Below, in pieces: positions 1 through 27,356 of a stretch of DNA of 28,939 nucleotides. Position 1 is the stretch's first letter. Every line of letters starts with the position of its first letter. Origin of the DNA: a virus; IMG/VR virus record IMGVR_UViG_3300047551_001654, positions 1 through 28,939 of that record. One strand, given 5' to 3'. Position numbers and translations under genes: made by a program. The notes under the pieces were generated by a model. The model made no database searches. It was given only the letters and a program-made list of their open reading frames with translations, and was not told where the DNA came from.

Positions 1-3000
1 ACGCGCGGCTTGCCGAAGCAATGCCTTCGCATCCTTGACGGCGGAAGCAATGGTCGCCATAGCCTGCGATGCCGGAGTGGGTGGCGCAGGCACACGCGCC
101 TTGGCAGGATTGTCCATGTAGGCGCGAGCGATCAAACCTCGCTCGGCATCGGTCAAAGGATCTCCGGTCGCAAGTTTCTTGAAGATGTCTTCCGGTATGT
201 CTCCAATGATGGCGTTCGCACGCTCCGCACCAAGGCGTGTACGCATCATGTTGGACAGCTCGTCCACGTCGCCAACGGTTGGCGATAGATCGCGCACGCG
301 CCTTGTGAAGTCGGACTTCACGCCGGCGATATCGCTCGGGTTGTCCTTGAAAGACTGGATGGCATCGGCAACAGCCTTGTCCAACTCATCCGGGTTGAGT
401 TTCGCGCCGTACTTTCCGACGATGTTGCGGACGTGCGCCGTAAGTGCCGACGCATTTTGCCTGTATTCCGCAGCCTGAGCGCTTACCAGCCTGCTCGCCT
501 GGCCTTTCAGCGCGGTCGGTAGTGCCTGGAGATCAGCAAGCCTCTGATCAGCCTTGGCCTTGATGGCAGGAAGTTGACGCGATTCCTGATCCTTGCGGGC
601 TTTCTCAAGCGCACGCTCAAGGGCACGCAACTCGTCGCGTCCTTCCTTGAACTTGCCGATAGGCTTCTCCCGCGCGGCGGCAATCTCTTCCGGTGTCTTG
701 ACCTTCTTCTTCGGGATGACGGTTTCGAATGCGTCGTTGGCACGTCGTTGCTCATCTGGAGTCAACTTCTGCCCGGTGATCCACTTTTCCAGTACGGTTG
801 GAGAGCCATCGTCATCCAGCATCATGTCAAGGAACGCGATGGCGTTCTTCCGGCCCTTCAACACACGCGCCAGTTCATCCACGAACACGACAGGATCGGC
901 AGGTCGTTTCCCACGCGCAAGGTACACGCGATACTTTGCATTCACCCAAACCTGCTGAAGCATCGCGTCGTCGATGTTGGTCAACTTACGCATGGCTTCC
1001 GACCAACCCGCGAACTTGCGGTCCGCTACCGTCTTGGCCTGATTCAGCAGATACCATCCGATGATCACCAGGTCTTCCGGAACCTGCTGTGTTGCACTCG
1101 CAGGCGTGATCCCAGCAACGCGGAAAGAACGAATCACGCGCTCCTTGGCGGCATTGTAGTCCGCGCTGCTTGGGCCACTTGTGCGAGATACTTCCGATAG
1201 GTTCGCCGCACCCTCACCAGCCTTCCGTGTGGCGACGGCATCGAGCATGGGGCCAACGGTAGCCGCGGCTATCTGTGGAGTCACACCATTCCCAATGACG
1301 GTTTGGGCAAGTGTCTTGTTGTCCGGAAGCGGATAGGAATCCGGTAGTCCCATCAAACGTGCGACGCCACGCATGGGAAGATCCACAACTTCCGCGCCGG
1401 TCTCGCTCGGAACGATTACGCGGGATACACGTCCACCACTTCCAGTCCTGATCGTGTTGACCGGTTCTCCAGCGTTGAACAATCGAGGCGCACGGGGTCC
1501 ACCAGGAGACGGCTCCACGAACGTCGGACCCTGCAATCCAAGATCCGCGACGGACTTGACGCCAAGGCGTTGTTTGTAGAAATTCGGTATGTCGCTACGC
1601 GTCGCACCTGGCAACAGATCTCCGACCGTATCCATCCATCCGGAATAAGGTTGATCGGTTTCTGGGCCATGCGTCTTGACGACTTCCGGAAGGTCCTCGT
1701 CCAGATTCCATGCGCGCAGGATAAGGCGTTTACGCTGTTGTGGTGTGCCATAGTCCGCTGCGTTGTACACGCCCACGTCATATCGATATCCGTTATCTTC
1801 AAGTGCCTTGACGATGACTGCGAATTCAGGACTATTGACGTAATCAGGCGCGTTCTCGATGGACACGGACCGCGGGAGGATATCCCGAATGGCACGCGCC
1901 GTAGCCTGCGCCATGCTCATGTCGATCTGCGACACGCCACGGGCGCCACGCACACCGCAGTACGCCTTGCAGACGGGGCTTGCGTGCAGGTGATCAACCC
2001 GCCCACGGAACTGCTTGTAATCAACGGTCTCGACGCCGGCGTTGATCACATGGTCGCCATATACGGATCGGTAATGGTTTGCGATCTTTGGATCAAGTTC
2101 AACCGCGCCGACAAGATCAACGCTGCGGTTCAGGATTCCTTGCTCAAAAACGCCACCGCCGGAGAACAGCGTCATCACGCGAGTCTTCGGCACATCAAAG
2201 CCGAACTCGGCGCGTTTTCCGATGTCGTCCCAAATGCCTTGAAGATAAGGCTTGAAACGCTCGCCAAGCGTTTGAATCATGCGGTCGGACCACAGCACGA
2301 AGTCCGCCACACCGTTCTTCAGGTAGTAAGTTCCAACGATGGCGGCATCTCGGACCAACAAGGGGTCAACGCCGGCGCTTGCACGTCCAGCTCCCGCCTT
2401 GATGCGCTGCAACGCTTCGTTGAAATCCTGTTCCGATGGTCCGACATCCCTGACCTTGCGTGCCGCACGCGCCGCGACATTGCTGGCCTGTCGAGCCTTT
2501 GGCACATTGGCACGCGCGGCCTGAGCCGCCTGCGCCGTGGCGTCTTGCGCGTCGTGGATTGCTTGCGTCCTGCGCCCTATACGCTTGGTAAGATCGGATA
2601 TGGCACGAATGCCTTCAACGTCATTCACTCCGACACGCTGGGCGAATTGCCCCAAAAGCAATGCGGCATCCTGGCCAGTCCAGTCAATGCCTCCAAGGTC
2701 AAACCATCGCGTCATAGCCAGTTCAAGTCCAGCCCTTGAACCAGACTGAATGATGACTTCCCCCAGTTGCTTGCTCAGGCGCATCAATTCCGCCGCCTCG
2801 GGGGCATCGGGGTTGTCTATGATGCGTTGCAGGAACTCGGCTTGCTTCGCCGCGGCTACGACACGGATCCTACCATCGCCGACGATAGATTCCGGCACGT
2901 TGAGGAAAGGCAGGATCTTGTCATTGTAGATCTGATCTGCGTTCCGCAATGCGGCGGTAGCTTCAGCCTTCCAAATGTTGTAATTAGCTTCGCGCTGTTG

Positions 3001-4728
3001 CGGTGTCAAGCGCACATCGACAGGTCTGTCCGTGCCACCGTACAACTGCACCAACGTATCGTTGATGGCGTTCTGCGCGTTGATCGTCAAAGGACGATTG
3101 GACGGAGCAGGCTCCTCGATAGCCGCAGGAGCCGGGGCACCCATGTCCACTCGTTCCGGAACCGCTACAGGTTGAGCGGTTGGAGCCTCCGCGGGAGGTG
3201 AACCCCCAGCACGGGGTGCCACGGGAATTTCAGGCGCAGGCGCACCCGCAGGCGTGATCGGAACTTCCGGTGCAACGCCCGGCTGGGCAGGAGGCGCGGT
3301 CGTCTCTGTCGCACCTTGCAATGCATTCTCCACACGCGCCACGGCTTGAGCGTTGGACGAAGCCGTGGAGAGCATATCCTCCAAAACGGATGCCGGGCTA
3401 TCTTCCGGCTTTGGCAACTGCGTAGGAATGAAATCAGGTTCCGCCAGATCGATGCCTTCTTGAGCTACGGAAACAGCAGATCGTTCTCGCACGCCGGGAT
3501 TACGCGCTTCATACGCCGCATTCGCCTTGCGTACAGCATCCTGAAGCCTGCGTATCTGCACAAACTCGGCAGTCTTAGGCACCACGAAACCAAGGATGTC
3601 CGGTGCAAAAGCGAATAGACCCGAAGTCGCTATAACATCCGGATCGCCTTGCTTGATTGCTCCAATCATTCCCGGCACGTTCGCAAGGGTGAATGCGAGA
3701 CGCATACCACGCTGAACGGCTGGGGTCGCACCTTTCATGAACGTGGCGGCTTTGCCAAGCACGGGACCGGCCGCCGCCATCATTGCCAAGGAGTCAGGAC
3801 GCACAAGGTTTGAGAACTCGGACCTAAGATACTGCCCTGGAGACGTTACCGATCCAGTCCCGGCAACCGGAAGGAGGCCACCACGGGGATCGAACCCGAG
3901 AGGCAAAGCGGACTCGAAAGGCTGGCCTGTGACAGCGGAAGTCGCGGCTTGCGCTGTCAGCCTTGATGCGGCTTCGAATGCCTGTGGCGTTATCGGATAC
4001 TGCGGCCCAAATGGATAATCTGGAATGGTTGGAGTCATCGGAGGAAGACCACCAATCAAACGCTCCGATCCTGCGCCAAGCTCAGCAATCCTGCGACGGT
4101 TTTCCTCGCTCATGCTGGCGTAGTACTTTTTGAACGCAGCTTTACCGACTTCGCTCACACCGGCAATGCGCCGCTGGCGCTCCTGTTCGTTGGGAGCAGT
4201 CGCGTAATCAACGAACTTCTGAAAGGCAAGCGATTCAGGACGCTGACCAGTAAGCCAATCGCTGATGTAGTTGTTGACCCTGATGCCGAATTCCTGTTCC
4301 GGAGTCACGGACTTGCGGAATGCGGCACGCTCCTTTGGCGTCAACGCCGTAAGTTCCGACACCGGTTGCTTGCGCTGCATCGCAGGCATCAGATCTGGAA
4401 TACGCCCCGTGGCACCTGCAAAGCCAATACTGGATTGACCCGGCATGGTCAATCCAGTCATGGCAGACGGAAGTGGCAACTTGCCCCCGGCTGGCGAAGG
4501 CATCGGAGGTGCGACCTCGGCCTGCTTCGGCTTGCCTTGAGGAGCGGCTTCCGGAGGTGTGGGAGTTACAGGTTTCGGAGGCTTCGCATTCGGTTTCGGC
4601 TTACCATAAGCCTCGTCGAACATCTGAAGTGCTTGCCCAGGCGTGGGCCACACACCGTCCCGAACCGTGATCCGAAGCTTACGGCTTGAATCACGCGGGT
4701 CAGAGATCTCGTAGTCCTCTTCAGCCAT
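1..4728 (-). CDS. Giant polyvalent internal virion protein with embedded cytosine-C5 DNA methyltransferase (C-terminus beyond window)
   Basis: The frame is open from the ATG at 4728 to the window edge without a stop, giving at least 1576 residues. It starts 4 bases after the stop of the preceding internal-protein gene, with a GGAG-type ribosome site in that gene's last codons. Visible order: a short N-terminal segment rich in DPRD/PTPGQ-type sequence, Pro-rich linkers (about 50-95 and 470-560), a hydrophobic Ala/Gly-rich stretch (about 312-390), long helical regions, module A (763-839), a cytosine-C5 methyltransferase (about 848-1165), module B (1185-1268) and a charged coiled-coil region (about 1340-1440). 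Its place at the end of the virion gene block, after two helical Ala/Gln-rich proteins, matches that of T7 gp16-like ejection proteins. I infer that it is packaged and injected. The fusion resembles the phage polyvalent proteins described by Iyer, Burroughs and Aravind. The domain call is firm; virion localisation is inference. Confidence 0.88.
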   Translation of the reverse strand, partial: MAEEDYEISDPRDSSRKLRITVRDGVWPTPGQALQMFDEAYGKPKPNAKPPKPVTPTPPEAAPQGKPKQAEVAPPMPSPAGGKLPLPSAMTGLTMPGQSSIGFAGATGRIPDLMPAMQRKQPVSELTALTPKERAAFRKSVTPEQEFGIRVNNYISDWLTGQRPESLAFQKFVDYATAPNEQERQRRIAGVSEVGKAAFKKYYASMSEENRRRIAELGAGSERLIGGLPPMTPTIPDYPFGPQYPITPQAFEAASRLTAQAATSAVTGQPFESALPLGFDPRGGLLPVAGTGSVTSPGQYLRSEFSNLVRPDSLAMMAAAGPVLGKAATFMKGATPAVQRGMRLAFTLANVPGMIGAIKQGDPDVIATSGLFAFAPDILGFVVPKTAEFVQIRRLQDAVRKANAAYEARNPGVRERSAVSVAQEGIDLAEPDFIPTQLPKPEDSPASVLEDMLSTASSNAQAVARVENALQGATETTAPPAQPGVAPEVPITPAGAPAPEIPVAPRAGGSPPAEAPTAQPVAVPERVDMGAPAPAAIEEPAPSNRPLTINAQNAINDTLVQLYGGTDRPVDVRLTPQQREANYNIWKAEATAALRNADQIYNDKILPFLNVPESIVGDGRIRVVAAAKQAEFLQRIIDNPDAPEAAELMRLSKQLGEVIIQSGSRAGLELAMTRWFDLGGIDWTGQDAALLLGQFAQRVGVNDVEGIRAISDLTKRIGRRTQAIHDAQDATAQAAQAARANVPKARQASNVAARAARKVRDVGPSEQDFNEALQRIKAGAGRASAGVDPLLVRDAAIVGTYYLKNGVADFVLWSDRMIQTLGERFKPYLQGIWDDIGKRAEFGFDVPKTRVMTLFSGGGVFEQGILNRSVDLVGAVELDPKIANHYRSVYGDHVINAGVETVDYKQFRGRVDHLHASPVCKAYCGVRGARGVSQIDMSMAQATARAIRDILPRSVSIENAPDYVNSPEFAVIVKALEDNGYRYDVGVYNAADYGTPQQRKRLILRAWNLDEDLPEVVKTHGPETDQPYSGWMDTVGDLLPGATRSDIPNFYKQRLGVKSVADLGLQGPTFVEPSPGGPRAPRLFNAGEPVNTIRTGSGGRVSRVIVPSETGAEVVDLPMRGVARLMGLPDSYPLPDNKTLAQTVIGNGVTPQIAAATVGPMLDAVATRKAGEGAANLSEVSRTSGPSSADYNAAKERVIRSFRVAGITPASATQQVPEDLVIIGWYLLNQAKTVADRKFAGWSEAMRKLTNIDDAMLQQVWVNAKYRVYLARGKRPADPVVFVDELARVLKGRKNAIAFLDMMLDDDGSPTVLEKWITGQKLTPDEQRRANDAFETVIPKKKVKTPEEIAAAREKPIGKFKEGRDELRALERALEKARKDQESRQLPAIKAKADQRLADLQALPTALKGQASRLVSAQAAEYRQNASALTAHVRNIVGKYGAKLNPDELDKAVADAIQSFKDNPSDIAGVKSDFTRRVRDLSPTVGDVDELSNMMRTRLGAERANAIIGDIPEDIFKKLATGDPLTDAERGLIARAYMDNPAKARVPAPPTPASQAMATIASAVKDAKALLRQAAR
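925..1176 (-). repeat. Module B, second copy of the repeat downstream of the methyltransferase domain
   Basis: Residues 1185-1268 of the giant protein: GPS-x2-DYN-x-A at 1185-1193, G-W-Y at 1224, F-x2-WSE-x-M at 1239-1246 and VW at 1260-1261. The spacing from GPS to G-x-Y is 39 residues (36 in module A), and from W to W it is 19 (20 in module A). Together the two modules bracket the methyltransferase domain, as if the enzyme had been inserted between duplicated structural units. Confidence 0.6.
1234..2187 (-). other. Cytosine-C5 DNA methyltransferase domain inside the giant protein
   Basis: Residues about 848-1165 of the giant protein contain all the main C5-methyltransferase motifs in canonical order. 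Motif I is LFSGGG at 854-859, the SAM-binding loop. The acidic VELDP segment follows. Motif IV is SPVCKAYC with the catalytic Cys at 920, where textbook members have PPCQ. Motif VI is IENAP with Glu 958. Motif VIII is QQRKR at 997-1001. A target-recognition region of only about 85 residues comes next, then PVNTI at 1089, the motif IX-like RLMGLPDSYP and motif X GNGVTP at 1146-1151. No catalytic residue is missing, so the domain should transfer methyl groups to cytosine C5. The short recognition region suggests a short target site, which cannot be read from sequence. There is no adjacent restriction gene. Confidence 0.9.
2212..2442 (-). repeat. Module A, protein repeat upstream of the methyltransferase domain
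   Basis: Residues 763-839 of the giant protein. Pattern: GPS-x2-D-F-N-x-A near the start, then about 36 residues later G-x-Y-Y, then F-x2-WSD-x-M, and a terminal IW about 20 residues after the first W. Module B (residues 1185-1268) has the same landmarks in the same order and at nearly the same spacing. The match was found by eye and is diverged at DNA level, so this is a protein repeat, not a DNA repeat. Confidence 0.6.
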
Positions 4729-4732
4729 TTTG

Positions 4733-6280
4733 TTACGGGATTCTCCTCGGATTGAAACCTGAAAGTGACCTGCCACCACCAGTTGATGGTGCGGCTGGAA
4801 CCTTGGGATTTGCGCCTTGCGGTCCACGAGTGAATTGTTTCGCTACAGGCCTACCTGTCATGATTCCACCACCGGCGTCGGCGCCACTCGCAAGATAGAA
4901 AGCGTATTTTGTATCCATTTCACGCAGTTGATTGTCAATTTCATCGATAACGCGCTGCCCGGCAGTACGCGAAATCATTGAACTCTGCACTTTAATAAGC
5001 ACATCCTGACGGCGTGCCTGCATTTCAGTCATCTGCCTGACAATGCTGTCTGCGAATTTCTGATTCTCTTCAGGCTTTGCTGTTCCGGATGCATTCTTTT
5101 GAGCAAGGGCAAGACGTTCCCTATCCAAGGCAAGAGAGCGATCACGATAACGCTCCAATGCCTTGAATTGGTCGAAATCCAACTGGTATTTCCTGTCGGC
5201 ATCTTTCCTATCTGCTTCATTTTCAATCTTCTGTATGTCAAGGCGTTGCCTCTCCAAATCAAGCCTGATCATATCAATGTTAGGCAGGGGTTTGGTAGAT
5301 ACCATCCTTGCCAATTGTTGAATCTGAGGATCAGGGCTTGCAAGCAACGACTCACGGAGTGCTTGTACTTGCTGGCTGTCTTCAACCGGGTTATCGCTAC
5401 GCCTTGAACTATTGAAGTCCATGACAAGACGTATGGCCTGTGAAACAGTCATCGGCGTTGCGATCTTGCCCACCTTCGCAATACCGGTCGGTATCGCTCC
5501 GCCTTCCGCGATGAACTTGGCAGCACCGGGTTGAGCAGCAGGCGTAAGTCCAGCAAGTGAAGTGAGAAGATCTGTACGGCCCTTGATACCTTGCGCTTCC
5601 GCTTGGGCACGGGCAATACGCGCGGCCTGTTCTCCAGCCGTGTTCTCGTATCCAGCCTGCGCGACGGCGTTACGCATCTGCATGGCTTGACCAGCCTCGC
5701 CTACTGCGACTTGCCTTGCGGCCAGTTCATCCCGGTAGCGTTGCGCCGCCTGGGCGTTCGCCATCTCGGTCAAACTCGCACGATTCTGGTACTCTCGCAG
5801 GGCTTGCTCGTACTGGTTCTGCACGTTCTGCTGGTACGCCTGCTGGGCACCACTAGCGGCGGCAACCGCACCAGCACCGCCACCGAGAAGCAATCCGATC
5901 AGGCCGGCGCGAAGCGACGCCTTCTGCGCTCCTGCGGCTTCCTGCTGGAACTGCCGCTGAGGCATCGTGGGCATCTGCTGATACGTCGGAATCTGCGGGA
6001 CGGGAAACTTTCCGAAATCAATCGTTTCCGGAACAGGTTTTGGGACATAGGTGTACAGTTTCGGATCGGAAAGCGGATCCTTGTACATGACTTCAGGGTT
6101 AGGCACAGGTGCCGGCGGTGCTGGAGGCACAGGCATTGTCGGAGGAGGTTGCGTAGGCGCAACGGCCAGAGGAACAGGGCGCACAGGAAATACTGGTGCA
6201 GGGGCAACACCACGCACAGGCTTCGGTGGCACGGCATACCCAAGAAGGATTGAAGCAAGCAGGTTCTGATCAATAGCCAT
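4733..6280 (-). CDS. Putative internal virion/ejection protein, Pro-rich and coiled-coil, 515 aa
   Basis: No enzymatic motif is recognisable. Residues 20-110 are extremely rich in Pro and Val (PPAPPAP-type runs). Residues 122-144 form a strongly hydrophobic Ala/Gly/Leu segment that could insert into a membrane. Residues 145-245 are Gln/Ala-rich helix, and about 330-400 are a highly charged heptad-like coiled coil with many Arg, Glu, Asp and Lys. The gene lies between a 255-residue helical protein and the giant protein, corresponding to the gp14-gp15-gp16 order of T7-like internal core proteins. The assignment as an internal or ejection protein rests on order and composition only. The start at 6280 is 11 bases after the stop of the preceding gene. 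Confidence 0.72.
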   Translation of the reverse strand: MAIDQNLLASILLGYAVPPKPVRGVAPAPVFPVRPVPLAVAPTQPPPTMPVPPAPPAPVPNPEVMYKDPLSDPKLYTYVPKPVPETIDFGKFPVPQIPTYQQMPTMPQRQFQQEAAGAQKASLRAGLIGLLLGGGAGAVAAASGAQQAYQQNVQNQYEQALREYQNRASLTEMANAQAAQRYRDELAARQVAVGEAGQAMQMRNAVAQAGYENTAGEQAARIARAQAEAQGIKGRTDLLTSLAGLTPAAQPGAAKFIAEGGAIPTGIAKVGKIATPMTVSQAIRLVMDFNSSRRSDNPVEDSQQVQALRESLLASPDPQIQQLARMVSTKPLPNIDMIRLDLERQRLDIQKIENEADRKDADRKYQLDFDQFKALERYRDRSLALDRERLALAQKNASGTAKPEENQKFADSIVRQMTEMQARRQDVLIKVQSSMISRTAGQRVIDEIDNQLREMDTKYAFYLASGADAGGGIMTGRPVAKQFTRGPQGANPKVPAAPSTGGGRSLSGFNPRRIP

Positions 6281-6291
6281 CTCGATATCCC

Positions 6292-7059
6292 CTATAACCG
6301 CAACCAGTTGCGCCGACGGGTTTGTTGCAGTTGACTACCAGGGATGGATACTTGATTCCCAGATGGATTAGTATATGTGTATCCTAGGTATTGTGGGGTG
6401 GTAACACCCCCCGTCCCCGCCATCGTAGCCGCCTGCTGGATCATGCCGAGGATGCGTTGCTGGTGAGCCGCACGCGCCGCCTCTTCGGCACCCGCCATGC
6501 CGCCGTACATCTCAAACCCCTGACCGTACAAACCCTGAAGACCGGCAAGATTGCCCATCTCCTCGCCGGAGTACATTCCACGGGCGCCACCGGCAAGTTG
6601 CACCGCTTCCTGCTGGGCCGCGTTGCGAGCCGCGATACGCGCCAAGGCCGTGTTGTACTGCGCCGCGGCACGTTGACCCATCCGCGCACCCTCAAGGTTG
6701 GCAAGCGTTCCTGCCTCAAGCCCACCGCCAAGTCCGCGCTGGGCGAGCATACGAGCCACGTTTGACTGCGCCTCGCCGTACTGCCTGGAGATGTCTCCGG
6801 CGGCACGCCCGAGGGTAAGCGCGTCCTGCTCGGAAGCGAACGGTTGTTCCTGAAGGTAACCAAGCCGGGTTCGCACCGCGGCCTGATACATCGGATCGAA
6901 CCGCTGTACACCTTCCTGCGAACGTGCCAAGCGGTTCTGATACGCACCGGACAAGTTGCCAAGGTTGCGTGCGAACTCCGCTTGCTGGTCCCGATAACCG
7001 GAGCGAGGCGCAGATCCAAACAAAGTCCTGCCTGGGTTCTTCAGGAAATTCCAAGCCAT
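6292..7059 (-). CDS. Putative internal virion protein, Ala/Gln/Gly-rich, 255 aa
   Basis: The protein begins MAWNFLKNPG and is dominated by Ala, Gln, Gly and Arg in long amphipathic helices (about residues 25-200), with Gly-rich turns such as QRGLGGGL. The C-terminus is a short Ser/Thr/Gln-rich tail ending in a basic RRRNW-type segment. I recognise no catalytic motif. Size, helicity and position just before the two larger internal proteins are like the smallest internal core protein of T7-type phages (gp14-like). The start is 1 base after the stop of the upstream structural gene, so translation is probably coupled. Function is inferred from context. Confidence 0.72.
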   Translation of the reverse strand: MAWNFLKNPGRTLFGSAPRSGYRDQQAEFARNLGNLSGAYQNRLARSQEGVQRFDPMYQAAVRTRLGYLQEQPFASEQDALTLGRAAGDISRQYGEAQSNVARMLAQRGLGGGLEAGTLANLEGARMGQRAAAQYNTALARIAARNAAQQEAVQLAGGARGMYSGEEMGNLAGLQGLYGQGFEMYGGMAGAEEAARAAHQQRILGMIQQAATMAGTGGVTTPQYLGYTYTNPSGNQVSIPGSQLQQTRRRNWLRL

Positions 7060-7060
7060 C

Positions 7061-7636
7061 TCAAGCCCCCTTGTATCCGGAAGCGGAAACGATCACATTT
7101 GCACTAGTCGTGGCGCACGCGGCGTTGAGAGCCGTGTTCGCCGTAAGGCGCAGAGGCACCGGAAGCGTGAGCGAGACTTGCCCCGAAGTGGCAGGCGCGT
7201 TCACCGTGTAGATCGTGGTGGCGCCGTTCTTGATGTTCACAAGCGTGGCCGTCGCGCTGGTGTTCAGCACGTTGATGTGCGTCACATAGATGCGGACATT
7301 CGCGCCCTGGGCGGCGATCACAGCCGTGTCCGACGTGTTCGTGATGGCAGCCGTGACACCGGAGATGAAGTTCTCCGGTATCGCATATGGAGCAGTCACC
7401 ACGCGCCCTATCAAATCCATCAGAAGATCGGCACGGTCACCAGATGCCACAACGCTGGGATCGGTCGAACGCGCACGGCCACCTACCTTGACCGGGTTCC
7501 CGGTATCGGCAATGTCGTGCGCCACATTCCCCGTCACGACATGGTCTGGGACAAAAGGATCCACATCCGAGCCAACGCCGGTTGCAGAAAAGTATTTGGT
7601 CGCTTCCGCGCCGTCCTTGATCTGGATGTTTGCCAT
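7061..7636 (-). CDS. Putative virion structural protein, beta-rich, 191 aa
   Basis: A beta-rich protein with many alternating Val/Thr/Ala segments, especially in residues 90-190 (TATLVNIKNGATT, VSLTLPVPLRL and similar), which looks like a jelly-roll or Ig-type fold. The N-terminal 60 residues are polar with DVDPFVPDHVV-like loops. It lies between the tail-protein genes and the internal proteins, so a tail or head accessory role is likely, but I do not recognise the family. An AGGA-type ribosome site precedes the ATG, within a 42-base spacer that also holds a 12-codon ORF. Confidence 0.7.
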   Translation of the reverse strand: MANIQIKDGAEATKYFSATGVGSDVDPFVPDHVVTGNVAHDIADTGNPVKVGGRARSTDPSVVASGDRADLLMDLIGRVVTAPYAIPENFISGVTAAITNTSDTAVIAAQGANVRIYVTHINVLNTSATATLVNIKNGATTIYTVNAPATSGQVSLTLPVPLRLTANTALNAACATTSANVIVSASGYKGA

Positions 7637-7679: not shown

Positions 7680-8095
7680 CACGATGTACCAGATACAGGA
7701 TCGATGGTAGGAATATCGATCGGAGGCGTGAACCCACTCTGCGTGTACAAGTCGCTGATCAACGTGATCAGATTCCCAATCACGATTTGCTGGCTGTTGT
7801 AGCGGTCGTCGTTGACCTGCTGATTCTTGTTCGCCAAGTTCCCGAGGCTTGAAACACGGCCTGTCAAATTATCTATCTGGCCCTGTTGCGTAGTGTTCCC
7901 GGTCACACCACCTGTCCCGCCGTCCGCCGTAGTGGAACAACATTCACCCGCGGCGTTGCCAGCCGCACGGCTTACAATCTGCCGGCGTGAAGCAGTCTTG
8001 GCTACGGTTGGATTCTCAAACGCTTGCGTAAGTTCCACGTCACGGAACCGCGCACGGCCATCGCCAGGCATCTTGACGAACGGGGCACGTCTCAT
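7679..8095 (-). CDS. Hypothetical virion-region protein, 138 aa
   Basis: I chose the ATG at 8095 because it overlaps the stop of the large tail gene as ATGA, the coupling used throughout this region. A longer in-frame extension to 8188 would lie wholly inside the tail gene. The protein begins MRRAPFVKMPGDGRARF and has a Cys-Cys and Gly/Thr-rich middle. A Gln/Asn-rich helical segment at about residues 70-115 (QQGQIDNLTGRVSSLGN) has heptad character, and the C-terminus is Pro-rich. This is typical of small tail or appendage components. I do not recognise the family. Confidence 0.65.
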   Translation of the reverse strand: MRRAPFVKMPGDGRARFRDVELTQAFENPTVAKTASRRQIVSRAAGNAAGECCSTTADGGTGGVTGNTTQQGQIDNLTGRVSSLGNLANKNQQVNDDRYNSQQIVIGNLITLISDLYTQSGFTPPIDIPTIDPVSGTS

Positions 8096-11022
8096 ATGCG
8101 TGGAACCTCGCTTTCGGAGAAGTAAGCGTGCGTCGCATTGATGATGATATTTGATTGAGTCGTTCCCGTGAACACCAACCGATGCCATATGCTCTTGGCG
8201 GAAGACAAGAACCCTCGCATCGAAAATGTCTTCCGGCTCACAGGCAGGTTGATCAACTTGCTTGATATGGTTGAGTTGTCATCCTGAAGCACGCTCACCG
8301 TACAGTCGGCACCACTCGGTGAATACAAGTCGAAATCAACCTGCGTCATGCGCCCCCTGCCCAGACGGCTCGGGCTGTAGTTGCCTTTCTGCCCATACCC
8401 ACGGGTCTTGAGTTCGTATGTGACATCGGTTGTCGTTGCGGATGGAGTAGCCTTGTCGCCATACACGATAGTCGAGTTGCCACCCTCAAGGTTCAACGTG
8501 TAGATCTGTCCATCCCTCGACCCCGAAAATAGAGTGGTGCGACGCACGTTTCCAAGTGCCAACGCGCTACTGGTTCCAGTACCGGGAGTATCCCACTTGA
8601 CCCATCCACCGAAACGATAGTCGTAAACATGGACTTGCTGGTTGTATCCAGGCCCGATGCCAAACGAATCGGTTGTGCTGTCGTTGAACACGAATGCACG
8701 GTTGTTGTAGAAGACAACTTGGGCATTCGGTGAACGCGAGATCATGTTGGTCTCCACATCACCGGAGAACCACGAGGATACATTCCCGTCGAACTCCATC
8801 ACGCCCAATGGACTCATGTACCAGACTTTGCCATTGACCATGGTGGCCGTGCCGCCGACCATGCCCGAGTCATTGCCCTGCACATACGGTTGCGCCGCGT
8901 AATTCGTCGCGTCGTAACCAGAGATCACCACGATGCTGTACTCGCGAATGGCGAGCATGACCGTGCCCATCGGAACCAACGCCTTGATCTTGTCCCGGTT
9001 GCTGTTGCTGTCCAAGGCGAAAGACGCACCCTTGATTCCGATGTACGGATCATCTGGATCCGGAACCAGAGTTGTGTAAACACCTGTTTCCTGTCCGTCT
9101 TTCATCGCCCACGACACATAGACCGTATTGCCTTTTGCCGCCCACAAACGTCCCTGATGCGCCGCAATGCACGTCAATCCGCTCGGGAACTGGTCACGGC
9201 CTATCTGATATATGGGACGGTCGAACAACGACGCATCGCTGGATGTATCCGTGTAAGTGGATGCGGAAGCAGATGATGTCGCCACTCCTATCAGGCGATA
9301 CCTACCGTCGTCGTACACGCCACCTTCTCGCCAGATCAAGTATTGACCCGTCGTGGCATTTGTGCGGGCAGGAATGGTCAACGTCGCAGTCCTGGCACCT
9401 GCCGTTGTCGTCACGTCCACGGATATCGGTGACCCGCTGCTCTCCGTGCCATCCGTGGTTTCGTATGTGGATACCGTGATGGAAGTCCCATCCCATTCCG
9501 AAAACCGGTATGTGTATGTATAGCCGTTGGATAGATTCCCGCCTTCCTTGATCCCGTTGATCGTCAACAGGTTTGCATCGCCATTCTCCAGTATCCCGGT
9601 GACTACGATGTCTTCAAGGAACTCGATACCCCAACCATCCACATCGGCCAAGACAGCGCTGGAAAACTGAGTCAGATCCGCAACGTACCCGCCGGCTGGA
9701 TCCTTGTACAGCATTCCGCCCTGATACCAAGTCGAACCGCTCTTGAGCAAAAGCCGCATGGCAAGTCCGGACACATCCACGCTTGCGCTCATGTCGAACC
9801 AGGCTTGAGTCTTCCCTGTCCAAACCTGATTTGATATCGCCGTGCTGTAGATGCGAAGTCCAGCCGTGAGAAGCGTTCCATCCCATACCTGAACGGAACC
9901 CTGATTCACAAGCAATGACCCTGCACTTGAGATCAACTTGAACTCTTGCTTAGGAGATAGGAGCGAGACCCGGTTGACGTTGACACCAGCACCACCGGAA
10001 CCCGTGGTCGCATTCGGCGCACCTATACGCAACTTGCAAGACAAGGCGTCGCTGGTGATGTTCCTATGGTCGAACAGCAACCTAACCTTCGTAGGCGTCG
10101 TTGGATTCAAGGCAATCGAGTACTTCGCCGAATCCGTACCGCTGATCATCGTAGTACCGGAGTCCGTATACAGGCGGACCTGAGCCTCCAGAACCTGCGC
10201 CGTATCAACTCCATTCTTGGCCCATGCGTAAGCCTCGAAAACATAGACCTTGGCACCGTTGTTTCCGGATTCATCCGGCACGGTCAAAGCGTTGGTGATC
10301 AAGTACTCCTTGGAGTTCGTTCCACCAAACGAATCCATGATCGCATACTGGAGATTTGCCGAAGTACTGCTTGCGGTACCGATGGACGGTTGTCCGGCAT
10401 CGGCATTCCACGGAGACGCGATCGTCGTACCGGAAGAACCTTCAAAGTTCCTCGCCGTGATCAGGTTTGTAGGAGCATAGCTGCCAGCATCCATCGCGTA
10501 TGGCTGGGAATAGTTGGACAACGTCGTGATGTCCGATACCAGAGTCCCGGCAGCACCAAGAGATACGGATGGCGCAGTCGCAGGCGTCGTAAGACCCGAA
10601 ACGCTGGTGGCATTCTGAAGCGTGATGTTGGTGCCGTTCCAACGGAACATGGCGTTCGTGCCATCGACACAATACAGATAGGAACCAAGGCGCGTGGTCT
10701 GCATCCCGGAAGACGCAACCGTTACCGTACCTGTGACGTTGGTCGCCGTGCTTCCACCTGTGGAAGTAGTCGCATACAACGTATTGTTGCTTGACCAGAA
10801 CAGACGGTGCAGATCATCGACACGGTATGCCGACAGTCCGTAGATCGGATACCCCTGAGCAGTTGTTAGTATGCCCCTCCAACCTGGGCGTAGTTCAAGC
10901 AACCCATCCTCGTTCAGGTATAGATTGCTGATCATGCTGGCATACCCTGGCTCCAACCTCTCGGGAGCCACGCGGGTATTCATTCCGCGCCAACCAAAGT
11001 CGCCTTGGATTGTGCGTTCCAT
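8092..11022 (-). CDS. Large tail protein, P22 gp10/T7 gp12-like nozzle or DNA-stabilisation protein candidate, 976 aa
   Basis: The N-terminus (GMNTR, LEPGYAS, LLELRPGWRG) has the form seen in large podoviral tail proteins, where a short tail-anchoring segment precedes repeated beta blades. Blade-like stretches ending in YCVDGTNAMFRW, LWAAKGNTVYVSW, KVWYMSPLGVMEFDG and QIYTLNLEGG recur through the protein and suggest a beta-propeller core, as in P22 gp10 and T7 gp12. Residues about 170-330 look like an inserted beta-sandwich, carbohydrate-binding-like domain. The gene overlaps the preceding 70-codon gene as TGATG and the following gene as ATGA. The role in closing and stabilising the packaged head or forming the tail nozzle is a family-level inference. 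Confidence 0.75.
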   Translation of the reverse strand: MERTIQGDFGWRGMNTRVAPERLEPGYASMISNLYLNEDGLLELRPGWRGILTTAQGYPIYGLSAYRVDDLHRLFWSSNNTLYATTSTGGSTATNVTGTVTVASSGMQTTRLGSYLYCVDGTNAMFRWNGTNITLQNATSVSGLTTPATAPSVSLGAAGTLVSDITTLSNYSQPYAMDAGSYAPTNLITARNFEGSSGTTIASPWNADAGQPSIGTASSTSANLQYAIMDSFGGTNSKEYLITNALTVPDESGNNGAKVYVFEAYAWAKNGVDTAQVLEAQVRLYTDSGTTMISGTDSAKYSIALNPTTPTKVRLLFDHRNITSDALSCKLRIGAPNATTGSGGAGVNVNRVSLLSPKQEFKLISSAGSLLVNQGSVQVWDGTLLTAGLRIYSTAISNQVWTGKTQAWFDMSASVDVSGLAMRLLLKSGSTWYQGGMLYKDPAGGYVADLTQFSSAVLADVDGWGIEFLEDIVVTGILENGDANLLTINGIKEGGNLSNGYTYTYRFSEWDGTSITVSTYETTDGTESSGSPISVDVTTTAGARTATLTIPARTNATTGQYLIWREGGVYDDGRYRLIGVATSSASASTYTDTSSDASLFDRPIYQIGRDQFPSGLTCIAAHQGRLWAAKGNTVYVSWAMKDGQETGVYTTLVPDPDDPYIGIKGASFALDSNSNRDKIKALVPMGTVMLAIREYSIVVISGYDATNYAAQPYVQGNDSGMVGGTATMVNGKVWYMSPLGVMEFDGNVSSWFSGDVETNMISRSPNAQVVFYNNRAFVFNDSTTDSFGIGPGYNQQVHVYDYRFGGWVKWDTPGTGTSSALALGNVRRTTLFSGSRDGQIYTLNLEGGNSTIVYGDKATPSATTTDVTYELKTRGYGQKGNYSPSRLGRGRMTQVDFDLYSPSGADCTVSVLQDDNSTISSKLINLPVSRKTFSMRGFLSSAKSIWHRLVFTGTTQSNIIINATHAYFSESEVPRI

Positions 11023-11234
11023 CAGATCACCACCGCATACATGGAGTTGAGACGCAAAGCAAAGTTCAGGGTAGGACCGGCAAGGTCGAACGCGGCAACA
11101 TCATCGGCATCGAGCGTATACACGGTCTGATTGCAGATAGCACCAACACGCACGGCCGAGGATGCCAAAGTCTGTACTCGGCTTGTCGCGCACGTTGCAG
11201 GACCGGTGCGATCGTAAGTACCGGAAGGGCGCAT
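11022..11234 (-). CDS. Small hypothetical tail-region protein, 70 aa
   Basis: The ATG at 11234 shares a base with the stop of the adaptor-like gene, and the stop shares a base with the start of the 976-residue tail gene (TGATG at both ends). This double coupling is the main support for the gene. The sequence has no strongly hydrophobic segment and no recognised motif. The C-terminal half (VYTLDADDVAAFDLAGPT) looks beta-rich. A TTG codon just before the ATG could also be read as a start, but the ATG fits the overlap pattern. Confidence 0.65.
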   Translation of the reverse strand: MRPSGTYDRTGPATCATSRVQTLASSAVRVGAICNQTVYTLDADDVAAFDLAGPTLNFALRLNSMYAVVI

Positions 11235-12037
11235 CAATCAGCCCTCATGCCACTTAGCGGTCCGCTGGGAGGCGCCTGATACATACCACCCGGTTGACGC
11301 CATCGCTGATCCAAGGCAAGCCACAACCGCGTGGATTCCTGCACCAGTTGCTCTTCCCAAATACGGGCACGTTCCACCAAGGAAGCATCGTGGTAGTTCC
11401 GCTTGGCGATCATGCACGCAACGTATCGAGGAACCAGATAAAGCAAATCCGCAGAAGGAGCCACCGCGGTTTCTGTGACGGTATCACCGGTTCCATCTCC
11501 AAGGCGGAGTGGATACCCGGCACCATACACGGCAATGTTGCCGTTTGCGCTCGGCTTGCGATACAAGCCAATCTGCGTCCGGCTCTGATGGAACCAATGC
11601 GTAGGCGTTCCTGCCGTCGCTGATTCAAAGCCAGGATCGTATCGACGTAGAGCCGTGACAGAGGCGTGTGTGAGTTGCGTGTTGTCCCAAAGCACCGCTT
11701 CAGGTGCCCACATCTCGCGCATACCCGCCGTATCCATATCCAGTTCAAATACGGATACATAGTTCGTGTTGGCGGATAGGTTCGTCGTGGACACAAGGCA
11801 CGGGATGAACAAGCACGTCCTGCAAAGCCATTCAATGGCTTCATTGGACAACTTGTACACATAGTTTGTAGTGCTGATGCTTTCCGTACCACTACCATTC
11901 CCAACAGCTGCGGCTTGACTATCGGTCGCTTCGGCAAGAAGCCAAAGCGCACGGTCCAAAAGACTGGCGGCAGTTGTAGGCTCACCGGTGGTGGTGGCCG
12001 CCGGCCCTAGATATGGTGGGTAGATTGATAGAGGCAT
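11234..12037 (-). CDS. Head-tail adaptor/connector-like protein 2, 267 aa
   Basis: The N-terminal helical part (LLDRALWLLAEATD, LSNEAIEWLCRTCLF) is followed by a beta-rich middle containing FELDMDTAGMREMW. A long C-terminal helix pair (LYLVPRYVACMIAKRNYHD, VERARIWEEQLVQEST) follows, then a Gly/Pro tail. This layout, with N-terminal helices, a beta domain and then helices holding a Tyr-rich cluster, is that of podoviral connector and tail-adaptor proteins (P22 gp4 and T7 gp11 type). The 223-residue protein at 15486-16157 has the same layout, so the genome may carry two diverged adaptors. Coupled as TGATG to both neighbours. Confidence 0.65.
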   Translation of the reverse strand: MPLSIYPPYLGPAATTTGEPTTAASLLDRALWLLAEATDSQAAAVGNGSGTESISTTNYVYKLSNEAIEWLCRTCLFIPCLVSTTNLSANTNYVSVFELDMDTAGMREMWAPEAVLWDNTQLTHASVTALRRYDPGFESATAGTPTHWFHQSRTQIGLYRKPSANGNIAVYGAGYPLRLGDGTGDTVTETAVAPSADLLYLVPRYVACMIAKRNYHDASLVERARIWEEQLVQESTRLWLALDQRWRQPGGMYQAPPSGPLSGMRAD

Positions 12038-13560
12038 CAGATTTCCTGAACCGTCAAACGGTCATTTCCATCCACGGATTGCGTGATCTGCAATGTCGTT
12101 GTATCGCCAACCATACCGAATTCAAGCACGCCAGGAGTTGCCGTCTCGCCACCTATTCCGACAATCGCCGTGATCATCCGTTTCAGACCGGTGGTCTGAG
12201 CGGCATTCAATTGCCAAGCACCTGCTCCGCTTGACGGTGCTTGCTCCAGCGAGTTGGTTGTGTATCTGAAGTCAACGCCATCTGCTTCAATCATGTTGTG
12301 CAGCCGGCCTAGAATATTCCCAACATCTCCAGCAGCGTAGGTTGTGGTGCTTGTCGCCTCGGTAAGGACTCCCTGGGCAATCTCAGTCACGGCATCCGTA
12401 GCAAGAGCATTGGCATCAATGGCTCCTGCGGAAAAGTCTCCAGCGGATATGACCGCGGGTTGCAGTTCGTGAATGTCTGCGGCGACATGATTGGATCCAG
12501 TTACGGATACATCCGCCTGAGTTGATGCGCCACGCAACACGCGCCGCCCGAACGTCGTGTTGCCATAAGTTCCACCGGCGTATGGCGTGTCCTTGTCTGC
12601 TCCCCAAACCGCATCGGCAATCGAATTTGCGGTTGGAGGCGTAGTGGTCAAACTGTATCCAGTTTTGTCGTTGTTCGTGCCAACAGTAACCGCTCCACCA
12701 GCGGTGATCGCAAGGCTGGAGAAGTTACTGGGGAACGCCTGCGTGAGCGAGTACCCAGTTTTGTCCGAGACCGTACCGGCCGTGACCGCGCCTCCTGCCG
12801 TGATGGCAAGGCTGGAGAAGTTACTCGGGAACGCCTGAGTAAGCGAATACCCGGTCTTGTCCGACACCGTGCCAGCCGTCACCGCGCCCCCACCGGTGAT
12901 CGCAAGGCTGGAGAAGTTCGTCGGGAATGCCTGCGTCAGCGAATACCCCGTTTTGTCCGATACGGTCCCGGCGGTAACCGCTCCGCCACCATTGATGGCG
13001 AGCGATGAGAAGTTCGTCGGGAATGCCTGCGTCAGCGAGTACCCGGTCTTGTCGTTGTTGGTCGCCACCGTGACCTGTCCGGTCGCGTTGCCGGTCGGCA
13101 GCGCACCGCTGGTGCCCTGCGCCACGTTGGGAATCGCCGTGAGGCCGAGCCGCACGGTATCGAGCAGATCAACCGCGATCAGCTGGAATTCAGCGAACAC
13201 CGGCGCGACACCGGTGCATTGGATCGAGACCAGCAGTTGAGTCGAGTTGGAGACGTTGAACCGCGCATCAGCGATCTGGATCTCATACACGCCGGGGAAG
13301 TTCGTTGCATCGACCTCCTTGAATCGGCATTTACCGGCGGTCGGCGCGGCGAACGTGCCGAGCGTCGTGATGGTCTCGACGTTGGAAGCCGCGGAGGTGT
13401 AGGTCGTCGCGGTCGCCTCCAGATCGGCGATGGTCGAGATGATGAGGCCGCTCGATGCGTTGGTCAATCCGGTCTTGCCTGCGCCGGTTGTGACGGCCGA
13501 ATCCTGAAGGAACACGCGGAGGATATTACTGGTGGTTCCCCGCTTGAGTATCTCTTTCAT
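12037..13560 (-). CDS. Repeat-containing tail appendage/fibre-like protein, 507 aa
   Basis: Residues 1-165 are a beta-rich head with segments such as GVYEIQIADARFNV and QLLVSIQCTG, resembling the upper baseplate or fibre-anchor domains found at the start of phage appendage proteins. Residues about 170-305 are four 32-residue tandem repeats plus a partial fifth (DKTGYSLTQAF, then NFSSLAI and GGGAVTAGTVS). The C-terminal part (about 310-507) begins with IADAVWGADKDTPYAG and continues through helical and beta stretches to a VLEFGMVGDTTTLQI segment. No enzyme motif is seen. A fibre or receptor-contact role is inferred from repeats and position. An AGAGG ribosome site lies 5 bases before the ATG. 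Confidence 0.72.
   Translation of the reverse strand: MKEILKRGTTSNILRVFLQDSAVTTGAGKTGLTNASSGLIISTIADLEATATTYTSAASNVETITTLGTFAAPTAGKCRFKEVDATNFPGVYEIQIADARFNVSNSTQLLVSIQCTGVAPVFAEFQLIAVDLLDTVRLGLTAIPNVAQGTSGALPTGNATGQVTVATNNDKTGYSLTQAFPTNFSSLAINGGGAVTAGTVSDKTGYSLTQAFPTNFSSLAITGGGAVTAGTVSDKTGYSLTQAFPSNFSSLAITAGGAVTAGTVSDKTGYSLTQAFPSNFSSLAITAGGAVTVGTNNDKTGYSLTTTPPTANSIADAVWGADKDTPYAGGTYGNTTFGRRVLRGASTQADVSVTGSNHVAADIHELQPAVISAGDFSAGAIDANALATDAVTEIAQGVLTEATSTTTYAAGDVGNILGRLHNMIEADGVDFRYTTNSLEQAPSSGAGAWQLNAAQTTGLKRMITAIVGIGGETATPGVLEFGMVGDTTTLQITQSVDGNDRLTVQEI
12646..13053 (-). repeat. Tandem 96-bp repeat, four full copies plus a partial fifth
   Basis: The sequence around GAGAAGTT recurs at 12719, 12815, 12911 and 13007, exactly 96 bases apart, encoding the 32-residue unit of the 507-residue appendage protein. 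Neighbouring copies differ at scattered, mostly synonymous positions (TCC/TCG, GTT/GTC). The protein repeat is thus conserved more strictly than the DNA, which implies selection on the unit and not a very recent slippage. Confidence 0.92.
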
Positions 13561-15485: not shown

Positions 15486-16157
15486 CTAGTACTTCCTCAC
15501 CGTGTAATCTTTCGCAGATCTAGCCAGATACAAACCGGCCTTCGCCTCCACGTCGCCCATCAAAGTCCGGAACTGCCTCCGGAAAGTCTCTGCCGCCGGA
15601 TATTCACGGGCTATCTCAGCACGCTTGCAGAGAACATGATAGACAACGGCATCATGTGCCCATACCGGTAGCGGACACTCATCATTATCGGTATTGGCTT
15701 GCGCGACTCCACCTGAATCGTATACCCAATACTCGCCAGGTTGACAGTAACCTTCGATCATCAACGCCGCGCTGCGCGTGACAGAAGGCGTCGGAGCCAA
15801 CACGATCTGATTCCCACCTCGGAACCCTACATGGGAAATAGGATCAGCGGCTGAGTCAAAACGAAACTGGTCAAAGTTATCGTCGTGACTACGCATGGTG
15901 CGAAGTCTTGACCAGTTCCCCGACGAATCCTTGAAGAACACCGCTACCGGGCGGTAGACATCCGGAGCGCAGTACACCTGCGTGTTAGCGGTCACATCCA
16001 GATAACGGATGTCCTCATGGCAATCTGACTGACGCGCCACTTCGTTTGTGGCATCCTTGATAAGGGAGTCCAATGCGAACGGGTCATCCCATCCCAGGGT
16101 GCCCGGTGATTCAGGATAGTACATCCTGACACGTTGCTTGATCTCCCCTCGCGTCAT
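15486..16157 (-). CDS. Head-tail adaptor/connector-like protein 1, 223 aa
   Basis: The ATG at 16157 follows the stop of the DUF6496-like gene by one base. A longer in-frame start would overlap that gene. The N-terminus has a helix (MTRGEIKQRVRMYY) and a LIKDATNEVARQSD helix. A beta domain with LDVTANTQVYCAPD and an IEGYCQPGEYW segment follows. The C-terminal helices contain WAHDAVVYHVLCKRAEIARE and FRRQFRTLMGD. This is the P22 gp4/T7 gp11-like adaptor layout, and its place soon after the capsid block agrees. Role: link between the portal ring and the tail. The exact family is not certain. Confidence 0.7.
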   Translation of the reverse strand: MTRGEIKQRVRMYYPESPGTLGWDDPFALDSLIKDATNEVARQSDCHEDIRYLDVTANTQVYCAPDVYRPVAVFFKDSSGNWSRLRTMRSHDDNFDQFRFDSAADPISHVGFRGGNQIVLAPTPSVTRSAALMIEGYCQPGEYWVYDSGGVAQANTDNDECPLPVWAHDAVVYHVLCKRAEIAREYPAAETFRRQFRTLMGDVEAKAGLYLARSAKDYTVRKY

Positions 16158-16158
16158 G

Positions 16159-16329
16159 TCACTTGCCCTTGGCCTTCTTCTTCGCCATTCCGGCTTCGGA
16201 CAACGCGATGGCGATGGCCTGCTTGCGAGACGTGACCTTGGCACCGGAGGAAGACTTGAGTCCACCTTCCTTGTATTCGTGCATCACCTTCTCGACCTTC
16301 TTCTCGGCCTTGGTAGGTTTCTTCATCAT
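16159..16329 (-). CDS. DUF6496-like small basic protein, 56 aa
   Basis: Found by direct translation. The start is coupled as TGATG to the preceding small gene. The sequence is Lys-rich with the recognisable core KKVEKVMHEYKEGGLKS, then a Ser/Gly turn, then VTSRKQAIAIALSEAGM and a KKK tail. This matches what I know as the DUF6496 family, small proteins common in environmental phages and some bacteria. Function is unknown, and DNA binding is plausible from the charge. An ORF of 67 codons in another frame over this region is a shadow. Confidence 0.8.
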   Translation of the reverse strand: MMKKPTKAEKKVEKVMHEYKEGGLKSSSGAKVTSRKQAIAIALSEAGMAKKKAKGK

Positions 16330-16948: not shown

Positions 16949-17992
16949 TTAGTTGCTCATCAACATTCCGTAGACACGGGCAATGGAGCGAGGATTGGCT
17001 TGGAACAAACCACACGCCCAGTCCACGACGACGTTTCGTCGCGTACCGACCGTTGGGTCGATCCCGAGATCCTTGACCGCAAGGGGTTCAAATTGCCAAC
17101 CGGTAAAGTCATTCGCACCAAACTTGCAGACAAACAACGAAGAGCAGAGACCACCGGTAGTAGCCGTACCGGCAGTATTCTCAGTATTCGTAATGATCTG
17201 GCTGGTGTCATCAGACTTACGAGGCAACTGAAGCAACCGAGCGTTACGATACGTCGTAATGACACGGTCAAAGTTGTCCTTGGTCTGGTCCAAGGCATTA
17301 CCGGACTGCGCTCGCTTGGCAGCGGTCGAAATACGGCGGAACAGCGAATCATTCACGAAGATGACTACGCCGTTGCCTTCAGGAGAACCGACATAGTCCA
17401 GAGCCTGGTCAAGACGCTCAAAGAACTGCTCCGAAGTAGCAGATGTCGCAGCATTCGCACCGGATAGTGCAAACGCCAAACCACTACCAGAACCAGCATC
17501 AATAAGCATTTCCGACGGAACGTCGTAATCGGTTTGACCAGCCGAACTCAGTCGGTAACGAAGGCCAGCAAACCAGTCGTCATCAGTAGTCGGCACGGCA
17601 TTGATGAACTTGTCCGAGAAGGTACGGACAAAGGATTTCTGCCACGCCATGAACTGGACGTCGATCGGATCCTGAATGGCGTTCTGCTCCATGTCCAGGA
17701 ATCGGTCGATCTGGAACTGATTGGAGACAATGTACGCCTGCTCTTCGAATTTCTTCGGGACAGAGCGGACAACGGTCGGTTCCGCATTCAACTTGCGGGT
17801 GCCAACCGTCGGCAGGGAACCAGCGAGGAAGCGAACACCGTTCGCCTTGAGCGACTTGGTGTTGGCAATCGGAAGAACGTCGAGAACGGAAACTCCCTGA
17901 TCGTAGAGGCCCATCGTGATCTTCTTGACCAGAGGATCATTCGACATGGCACCGTAATCATAGAGCGTAAGGGCTTCGGAAGAAGCAGCCAT
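16949..17992 (-). CDS. Major capsid protein, HK97-fold type, 347 aa
   Basis: Length and position directly after the scaffold gene fit a major capsid protein. The N-terminal arm (LTLYDYGAMSNDPLVKK) leads to an E-loop-like segment (RKLNAEPTVV, then VPKKFEEQAYIVSN). Helical and central parts (QKSFVRTFSDKFIN, QFFERLDQALDYV) and a P-domain-like region with GVVIFVNDSLFRRI follow. The C-terminal strand-rich end contains WQFEPLAVKDLGI and ARVYGML. These are features of the DUF/gp5-like family used by many podoviruses. An AAGGAG ribosome site precedes the ATG. No separate protease gene is visible. Confidence 0.88.
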   Translation of the reverse strand: MAASSEALTLYDYGAMSNDPLVKKITMGLYDQGVSVLDVLPIANTKSLKANGVRFLAGSLPTVGTRKLNAEPTVVRSVPKKFEEQAYIVSNQFQIDRFLDMEQNAIQDPIDVQFMAWQKSFVRTFSDKFINAVPTTDDDWFAGLRYRLSSAGQTDYDVPSEMLIDAGSGSGLAFALSGANAATSATSEQFFERLDQALDYVGSPEGNGVVIFVNDSLFRRISTAAKRAQSGNALDQTKDNFDRVITTYRNARLLQLPRKSDDTSQIITNTENTAGTATTGGLCSSLFVCKFGANDFTGWQFEPLAVKDLGIDPTVGTRRNVVVDWACGLFQANPRSIARVYGMLMSN

Positions 17993-18002
17993 TTCTTACT
18001 CC

Positions 18003-18767
18003 TTAGATAGTGTCCTTGTTTCCACCGAGGATGTCTCGCCAAGGTCGTGCAGCCTGTTGTTTCCAAGCGTCCAGAGGACTCATGGGGCGCGTCTGCTGCG
18101 CGGCTTGGTTCGTACTCCCCATCGGAGACGGAGGTGAAGGTTGACGAATCGCCTGAGACTTGGCGGCTAGGCTGAACCTGTCCACCATGGCCGCGACCTG
18201 CGCCGCGGCGGCGTCCGGTGCGAGACCGGCCCGAATCAGTTCATCGACCATGTCCGGAGCCTGCGCAGCGGAAGGGTGTTGCGTCAATGCAACCTGCTTG
18301 TGTTGCTGCAACAGCAACTCGCGCACCTGCTGACGTTCCCGCTCAAACTGGATCCGCTGGATTTCAAGATCACGGCGCATCGATGCCGTGGTTTCATCCA
18401 ACTCGCCCTCGTCAACCTGACTCTGGAAGTATGCGGATACCCGCTCTTCCTCGATCCGTTGACGTTCAAGTTCCGCAGCTTGTTGCATCTCCGCCAAGGA
18501 ACTGAACCCGAACTGCTGAAGGATTGCGTTCTCCGCTTCCTTCTGTGCCTTGAGTTCCTTGAACTGGTCGTTGACTTCCTTGAAACGATTGTATGGAATC
18601 GGGCCAGGCTCGCCCTCATCCGTCGTTTCCTCGTCGAATAGCGCTGGGCCTGTCGCGTCCCCCGTCGCCGGTTGCTCGCTAGTCTCCGAATCGATCTGAT
18701 CGGACTCCGTGGCCGGCGAGTCCACGGTCTGTATCGCCTCTTCGTCCATCATTACCTCTTGAGCCAC
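18003..18767 (-). CDS. Capsid scaffolding protein, about 254 aa
   Basis: Highly acidic N-terminus (residues 1-55, many Asp and Glu), a charged helical centre (FKEVNDQFKELKAQKEAEN, then LAEMQQAAELERQR and LEIQRIQFERERQQ) and a Pro/Ser-rich tail, with no globular domain. This is the usual makeup of phage scaffolds. It lies between portal and capsid genes as expected. The first codon is GTG at 18767, overlapping the portal TAG as TAGTG. ATG codons at 18752 and 18749 are alternatives, the latter 5 bases after AGAGG. The scaffold should direct procapsid assembly and then leave. Confidence 0.85.
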   Translation of the reverse strand: MAQEVMMDEEAIQTVDSPATESDQIDSETSEQPATGDATGPALFDEETTDEGEPGPIPYNRFKEVNDQFKELKAQKEAENAILQQFGFSSLAEMQQAAELERQRIEEERVSAYFQSQVDEGELDETTASMRRDLEIQRIQFERERQQVRELLLQQHKQVALTQHPSAAQAPDMVDELIRAGLAPDAAAAQVAAMVDRFSLAAKSQAIRQPSPPSPMGSTNQAAQQTRPMSPLDAWKQQAARPWRDILGGNKDTI

Positions 18768-27156: not shown

Positions 27157-27356
27157 TCCACCACCTCCCAGTCGTCGTGCATGAATTGATCCACTACCAG
27201 CCTTTCGGACACTCGTCCTTTGACGTGGTATCTGATACCACTCCTGTGCGTGTACTCCGGGTCTATGTAGACCGCGGCGTGCGTATCCGGCTTCCATACT
27301 GTCCTACGCACCTTCTTGCCGTGCCTGATGGCCTCAAGCGCTTCAATACCTGTCAT
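27153..27356 (-). CDS. DUF2829/Tad2-like small protein 3, 67 aa
   Basis: The ATG at 27356 overlaps the RuvC-like stop as ATGA. The product begins MTGIEALEAIRHGKKVRRTV, then W, and ends HDDWEVVE. These are the conserved ends of the DUF2829-like unit, with a central beta region holding YIDPEYTH and GIRYHVKG. It is the most compact of the three copies and closest to a minimal domain. An in-frame upstream extension to 27770 runs inside the resolvase gene and is a shadow. Confidence 0.72.
   Translation of the reverse strand: MTGIEALEAIRHGKKVRRTVWKPDTHAAVYIDPEYTHRSGIRYHVKGRVSERLVVDQFMHDDWEVVE

Follow-up and report, generated by a model that had tools for sequence, protein, structure and literature searches.

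A predicted cytosine-C5 methyltransferase embedded in a giant, probably virion-packaged phage protein

A virus record of 28,939 bases from IMG/VR, which was analysed at its full length and is referred to below as the window, ends in a giant open reading frame (ORF) that encloses a cytosine-C5 methyltransferase (MTase) domain. This raises the question whether such an enzyme enters the next host as part of a virion protein and marks the phage DNA on arrival, or whether it acts late, in the cell that produces it. The earlier note on this DNA had favoured the former, with an MTase available to the phage at time zero.

The giant ORF and its embedded domain

All recognisable genes of the window were found on the minus strand. 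They encode a RuvC-like protein, dUTPase, a nuclease, a primase/helicase, terminase (phrog_2), portal, capsid, a Bbp16-like protein (a match below the Pfam cut-off), two SU10-adaptor-like proteins, a tail/nozzle-like protein of 976 aa and further proteins of 191, 255 and 515 aa, with the giant ORF last and cut by the contig end. By its head genes (portal, Bbp16-like, SU10-adaptor-like) the phage looks like a podovirus. The major capsid gene (phrog_212, 4.5e-25), a gene at the scaffold position and the portal gene (phrog_156, 2.6e-42) together span 16949-20893 on the minus strand and belong to the same operon as the giant; so does the tail/nozzle-like gene upstream of the giant (8092-11022, minus strand), which showed a weak match to the head closure family phrog_8040 and is 100% identical in its copy on contig L037. 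The two proteins of the SU10-adaptor family (11234-12037 and 15486-16265) differ from each other within this one genome. The 507-aa gene at 12037-13560 contains repeats of about 96 bases, about 81% identical (12655-13053), that encode protein repeats of about 32 residues (KTGYSLTQAFPxNFSSLAI...) and are present in L037 too. The RuvC-like Holliday junction nuclease (27353-27871, minus strand; PF02075, 1e-9) is overlapped by other long frames.

The giant ORF begins with an ATG at 4726-4728, preceded by GAGGAG and placed right after the stop of the upstream gene at 4733, and stays open on the minus strand from 4728 to 1 for 1576 codons up to the contig end, where the C-terminus is lost; the encoded late protein is of at least 1576 aa. 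In its visible part only the MTase and a non-enzymatic helical domain were recognisable. No helicase was matched in the 1576 residues seen, and one may be encoded in the missing C-terminal part.

The MTase domain occupies residues 848-1165 (1234-2187, minus strand) and carries all catalytic motifs. It matched PF00145 at E 3.1e-29 with 102.9 bits against a cut-off of 22 bits, the match running over residues 850-1157 in ATG numbering (883-1190 of P0001) and over positions 2-318 of the 324 in the profile; phrog_116 was matched at 1.9e-37. The catalytic motifs follow the family order, with motif I as FSGGG (855-859), motif IV as ASPVC with the catalytic Cys920, motif VI as Glu958-Asn959, motif VIII as Arg999/Arg1001 and motif X as Gly1146-Asn1147. 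Motif IV of C5 MTases is classically PC-Q, but that of the window is SPVC-K; the residue preceding the motif IV cysteine varies among phage C5 enzymes, and HASPVCK is characteristic of an entire clade (see below). An AlphaFold model gave high confidence for the MTase core, with pLDDT of 83-97 in many 10-residue blocks, and its best PDB matches were M.HhaI (E 6e-14, TM 0.69 over the target), M.HaeIII and DNMT2. Comparison of sequence profiles also returned M.HhaI and M.HaeIII, and homologues aligned across the entire domain.

The earlier note had described a complete C5 MTase domain inside the giant, not free-standing; both the PF00145 search and the structure prediction, which gave an M.HhaI fold, bear this out, and the domain coordinates and residue numbers that it gave (Cys920, Glu958) were correct by motif check. 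A frame break at the domain edges, which it had named as a possible objection, was not seen: the frame is unbroken there and GC3 is continuous (0.59/0.60/0.66). On the strength of the domain itself and of the clade described below, the window domain is almost certainly an intact predicted DNA cytosine-C5 methyltransferase.

Positions 1-7339 of the window are covered by one contig only, so the MTase domain stands without an independent assembly. No contig that would prolong the window to the left was found by exact matching. The overlapping contig L037/L038 comes from the same phage species (99.94% identity over 21.6 kb) and reaches 8.7 kb past the right end of the window; the giant gene is absent from it.

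A clade of giant-embedded relatives

Scans of IMG/VR with single sequences, either the whole giant protein or the MTase alone, recovered no relatives; these were found only by a profile aligned from the window and its nearest free-standing homologues. In this first profile scan the relatives showed 35-39% identity, and most of the best ones were parts of ORFs 1448 to 6036 aa long. A second scan of IMG/VR, with a profile that included the embedded set, gave 63 ORFs of at least 700 aa, and motif IV reads HASPVCK in 59 of these, a member count that is biased because HASPVCK was among the patterns of that scan. The giant size of the members is free of this bias, as the first scan did not use HASPVCK. 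The giant HASPVCK ORFs, at least 59 in number, span 716-6242 aa; among smaller ORFs the motif was found in 23 of 157. The MTase is internal in 47 of the 59 giants and lies at the C-terminal end in 10. The earlier note had called the coupling an unusual design, which is too strong since at least 59 giant ORFs of IMG/VR carry the same type of MTase.

In an IQ-TREE phylogeny the window fell into a clade of 43 rows (SH-aLRT 99), 41 members of which are giant-embedded. Its exact sister was unresolved in the tree, the nearest row by path being L198, a 443-aa ORF with 41% identity. C920, E958, N959, R999, R1001 and N1147 were invariant in all 43 clade members by an alignment-based count, which replaced a regex count of 25/59 intact motifs, an artefact of rigid patterns. 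In six pairs, five giant-embedded and one of short forms (L198/L199), dN/dS was 0.03-0.19 (Nei-Gojobori), showing purifying selection in relatives of the window MTase.

A short HASPVCK form of about 440 aa with an N-terminal extension of 115-135 aa was present in L198, L199, L200, L208 and L214; in L198, L199 and L214 it is followed by genes for about 507, 140 and 720 aa, which are probably terminase and portal genes. In L173 the embedded C5 MTase (about residues 3395-3600 of its ORF) is circularly permuted, with motif X (GNGVP, 3417) before motif I (FSGGS, 3445), followed by IV, VI and VIII.

A search of 50,697 named phage records gave no close giant-embedded relative, and the class is therefore visible mainly in uncultivated viruses. 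To judge by their IMG numbers, the contigs of L123, L124, L127 and L211 may come from isolate genomes. Among 398 genomes of one bacterial phylum, searched at E 1e-45 without a positive control, none contained a clade member.

Beyond the right end of the window, the same phage encodes a separate C5 MTase of 616 aa (L038:959-2809, minus strand) in a divergently transcribed region, with a PF00145 match at 1.5e-54 and a canonical TPCQ motif. A second, shorter C5 frame was also detected in 18 of the 32 records with a giant and in 4 of the 28 with the DarB-type domain (Fisher p = 0.001), an enrichment to be read as a lead and not as proof because the contigs are incomplete and related.

Flanking domains and operon setting

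The MTase abuts, on its N-terminal side, a roughly 75-residue helical domain (2194-2463, minus strand) that is common to DarB-like giants. It matched phrog_10089 ("DarB-like antirestriction") at 2.1e-7, tblastn linked it to Y7, Mwe-JY07, BcepIL02 and Lessieviruses, and a profile of the domain built without the window scored 46 bits (E 1.9e-13) on the window. The domain was found at 28 IMG/VR loci. On the C-terminal side of the MTase a second copy (898-1209, minus strand) was detected by Smith-Waterman self-comparison, with a score of 74 against 25 +/- 4.6 in 2000 shuffles (maximum 55); the DarB-domain family profile missed it, and the copy is called diverged because only the self-comparison supports it. 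Identification of the helical domain with LPD36 was tried and dropped: LPD36 immediately precedes an adenine MTase having a GxGU motif (PMC5512222), and in L120 about 250 residues separate the shared domain from the GxGU-type motif (GWGAS) that follows it.

Where these are detectable, DarB-like giants carry an adenine MTase motif and a helicase several hundred residues after the helical domain. When DarB-like giants with the helical domain were searched with a C5 profile, no C5 MTase was detected. Weak PF00145 matches near motif IV were seen in three DarB-type giants of more than 5000 aa (L034, L030 and L027; records G470, G466 and G463). Of the DarB-like hallmarks, the window giant has the helical domain upstream of its MTase; in place of an adenine N6 MTase fused to an SF2 helicase, its 1576 residues contain the C5 enzyme.

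The relatives of the window MTase keep polyvalent company. ART-PolyVal was present in the records of 19 of 43 relatives, in frames of giant length, and LPD38 in 6 of 43; L128 and L180 contain several polyvalent domains each, and LPD14 was also found in the giant frame of relatives. Their neighbouring genes match tail, tail fibre, portal, terminase and internal virion protein families. Polyvalent proteins unite at least two disparate functional domains in one chain and are encoded by portal-terminase phages. The window phage has terminase, portal and capsid genes, and the part of its giant that is seen has the MTase beside a non-enzymatic helical domain; together with the relatives this supports the earlier comparison with polyvalent proteins, for a probably polyvalent-type giant at the end of a structural operon.

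The same note had placed the giant where T7-like phages encode internal or ejection proteins, and this held in part. Directly before the giant lies a 515-aa gene at the gp15 position (4733-6280, minus strand), which gave no match in family searches, and before that an Ala/Gln-rich 255-aa gene at the gp14 position (6292-7059, minus strand), both assigned by position and size only. In L248 a phrog_376 tail protein is followed by a phrog_418 internal virion protein, a 745-aa gene and the giant, and in L224 phrog_418 is followed by a 507-aa gene and the giant; phrog_418 was present in 4 of 18 relatives' records tested. The window shares this layout by gene size and position only, and profile comparison of its 255-aa protein with the gp14-like internal virion proteins of relatives detected no homology. 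No transglycosylase (SLT) domain was found in the window or in any of the 43 relatives.

Proposed role and comparison with known systems

The giant late protein is probably carried in the virus particle. Virion association of the window giant is indicated indirectly, by its DarB-type N-flanking domain, as mass spectrometry had detected the DarB-like giant JC1 gp69 in virions (PMC9144972), and by relatives that stand right after internal virion genes. P1 DarB is packaged via an N-terminal signal and is believed to enter the cell (PMC9024508). In the role that we propose, the giant would be made late, packed in the capsid with internal or ejection proteins and carried into the next host together with the DNA. 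The flanking helical domains would hold the embedded enzyme near the DNA, where it could methylate a short motif of the incoming genome in cis, and this early methylation would block cytosine-sensitive restriction before new phage proteins appear; replicating DNA would be the later substrate of the phage's free-standing C5 enzyme. The scheme would be DarB-like, with a C5 enzyme replacing the adenine MTase and helicase. Taken as a whole chain, it is the account that we narrowly favour. Against it stand the lack of homology of the 255-aa gene to internal virion proteins, the absence of a transglycosylase in the relatives and the possibility that P1 Dar shields DNA. The free-standing enzyme also complicates the idea of action from time zero, and it could do the modification alone. 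That a widespread, undescribed class of virion-packaged giants delivers a C5 MTase, and that modification runs in two stages, the injected embedded enzyme serving the entering genome and the free-standing one the replicating DNA, is a tentative generalisation which we regard as possible, if somewhat doubtful.

The main rival to virion delivery is late modification of progeny DNA, in which the enzyme would act in the producing cell before or during packaging and virion association would be incidental or serve another part of the giant. The location of the giant in a late operon, translated with structural genes, would suit it, as would the position of the short relatives L198, L199 and L214 just upstream of terminase- and portal-looking genes; however, the free-standing C5 MTases of this phage and of 18 of the 32 giant-bearing records could already suffice for this task, and the fusion to polyvalent domains is left unexplained. 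We consider late action rather unlikely. It is improbable that the MTase fold serves to bind DNA by reading its sequence, so as to shield or condense the entering DNA, with methylation secondary. The P1 Dar system protects only in cis, and physical obstruction of access, not methylation, has been proposed for it (review PMC12707154), but the catalytic residues are invariant in 43 diverged members and dN/dS is low, neither of which would be needed for shielding alone, so shielding without methylation fits poorly. Methylation of host DNA or RNA by a virion-delivered enzyme, as one of several host-takeover activities, is decidedly improbable: ADP-ribosyltransferase domains of the relatives are expected to act on the host, and DNMT2, a tRNA MTase, was among the structural matches, yet in catalytic architecture the DNA enzymes of the M.HhaI/M.HaeIII type are nearest. 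The chance is close to negligible that a newly captured free-standing MTase was fused by accident, or joined by an assembly chimera, and has no function in the giant; single-contig coverage of 1-7339 would allow it, but 59 giant relatives of one clade in similar context, together with the unbroken frame and GC3, already contradict it.

If virion delivery is right, phages may often deliver a DNA-marking enzyme along with their DNA. How polyvalent and DarB-type proteins protect entering DNA is unsettled, and a C5 version could directly tell apart two actions of virion-delivered enzymes, modification of DNA at entry and mere shielding, as it offers a clear reporter (5mC by bisulfite, EM-seq or nanopore sequencing) and a single substitution (C920A) that would inactivate it. 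Members of the class are readily recognised by HASPVCK. We found no ejection or internal virion protein described with a C5 MTase in the literature searched, which covered few subscription papers; the polyvalent and DarB-type proteins known already have adenine MTases, and the C5 class is new in that literature.

Among named phages and plasmids, the best free-standing matches are the C5 MTases of Planktothrix phage PaV-LD and Nostoc plasmids, which share 32-33% identity and the same motif order with the window domain; they are encoded separately, measure about 350 aa and have SPPCQ, whereas the window enzyme is embedded and has HASPVCK. Free-standing relatives of this type are also present in IMG/VR. 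T7 gp16-type ejection proteins resemble the giants of L248 and L224 in gene position, after a tail/nozzle gene, an internal virion protein and a gp15-sized gene; gp16 has a transglycosylase, in place of which the window giant has an MTase. With the polyvalent proteins (PMC5512222) the relatives share ART-PolyVal, LPD38 and LPD14 in the same frame and a setting in portal-terminase phages. The MTases of that survey (Iyer et al., 2017) are mostly adenine enzymes, "cytosine" occurring in one reference title only (PMC5512222), whereas that of the window giant is a C5 enzyme. The DarB-like giants of Bcep22-like podoviruses (Lessievirus, JC1 gp69, BcepIL02 gp70) are likewise giant and late, stand at the end of the structural operon and have in common with the window giant the helical domain with a DNA methyltransferase after it; theirs is an adenine N6 MTase (Eco57I type, NPPY/F) with an SF2 helicase, and that of the window is a C5 enzyme abutting the helical domain.
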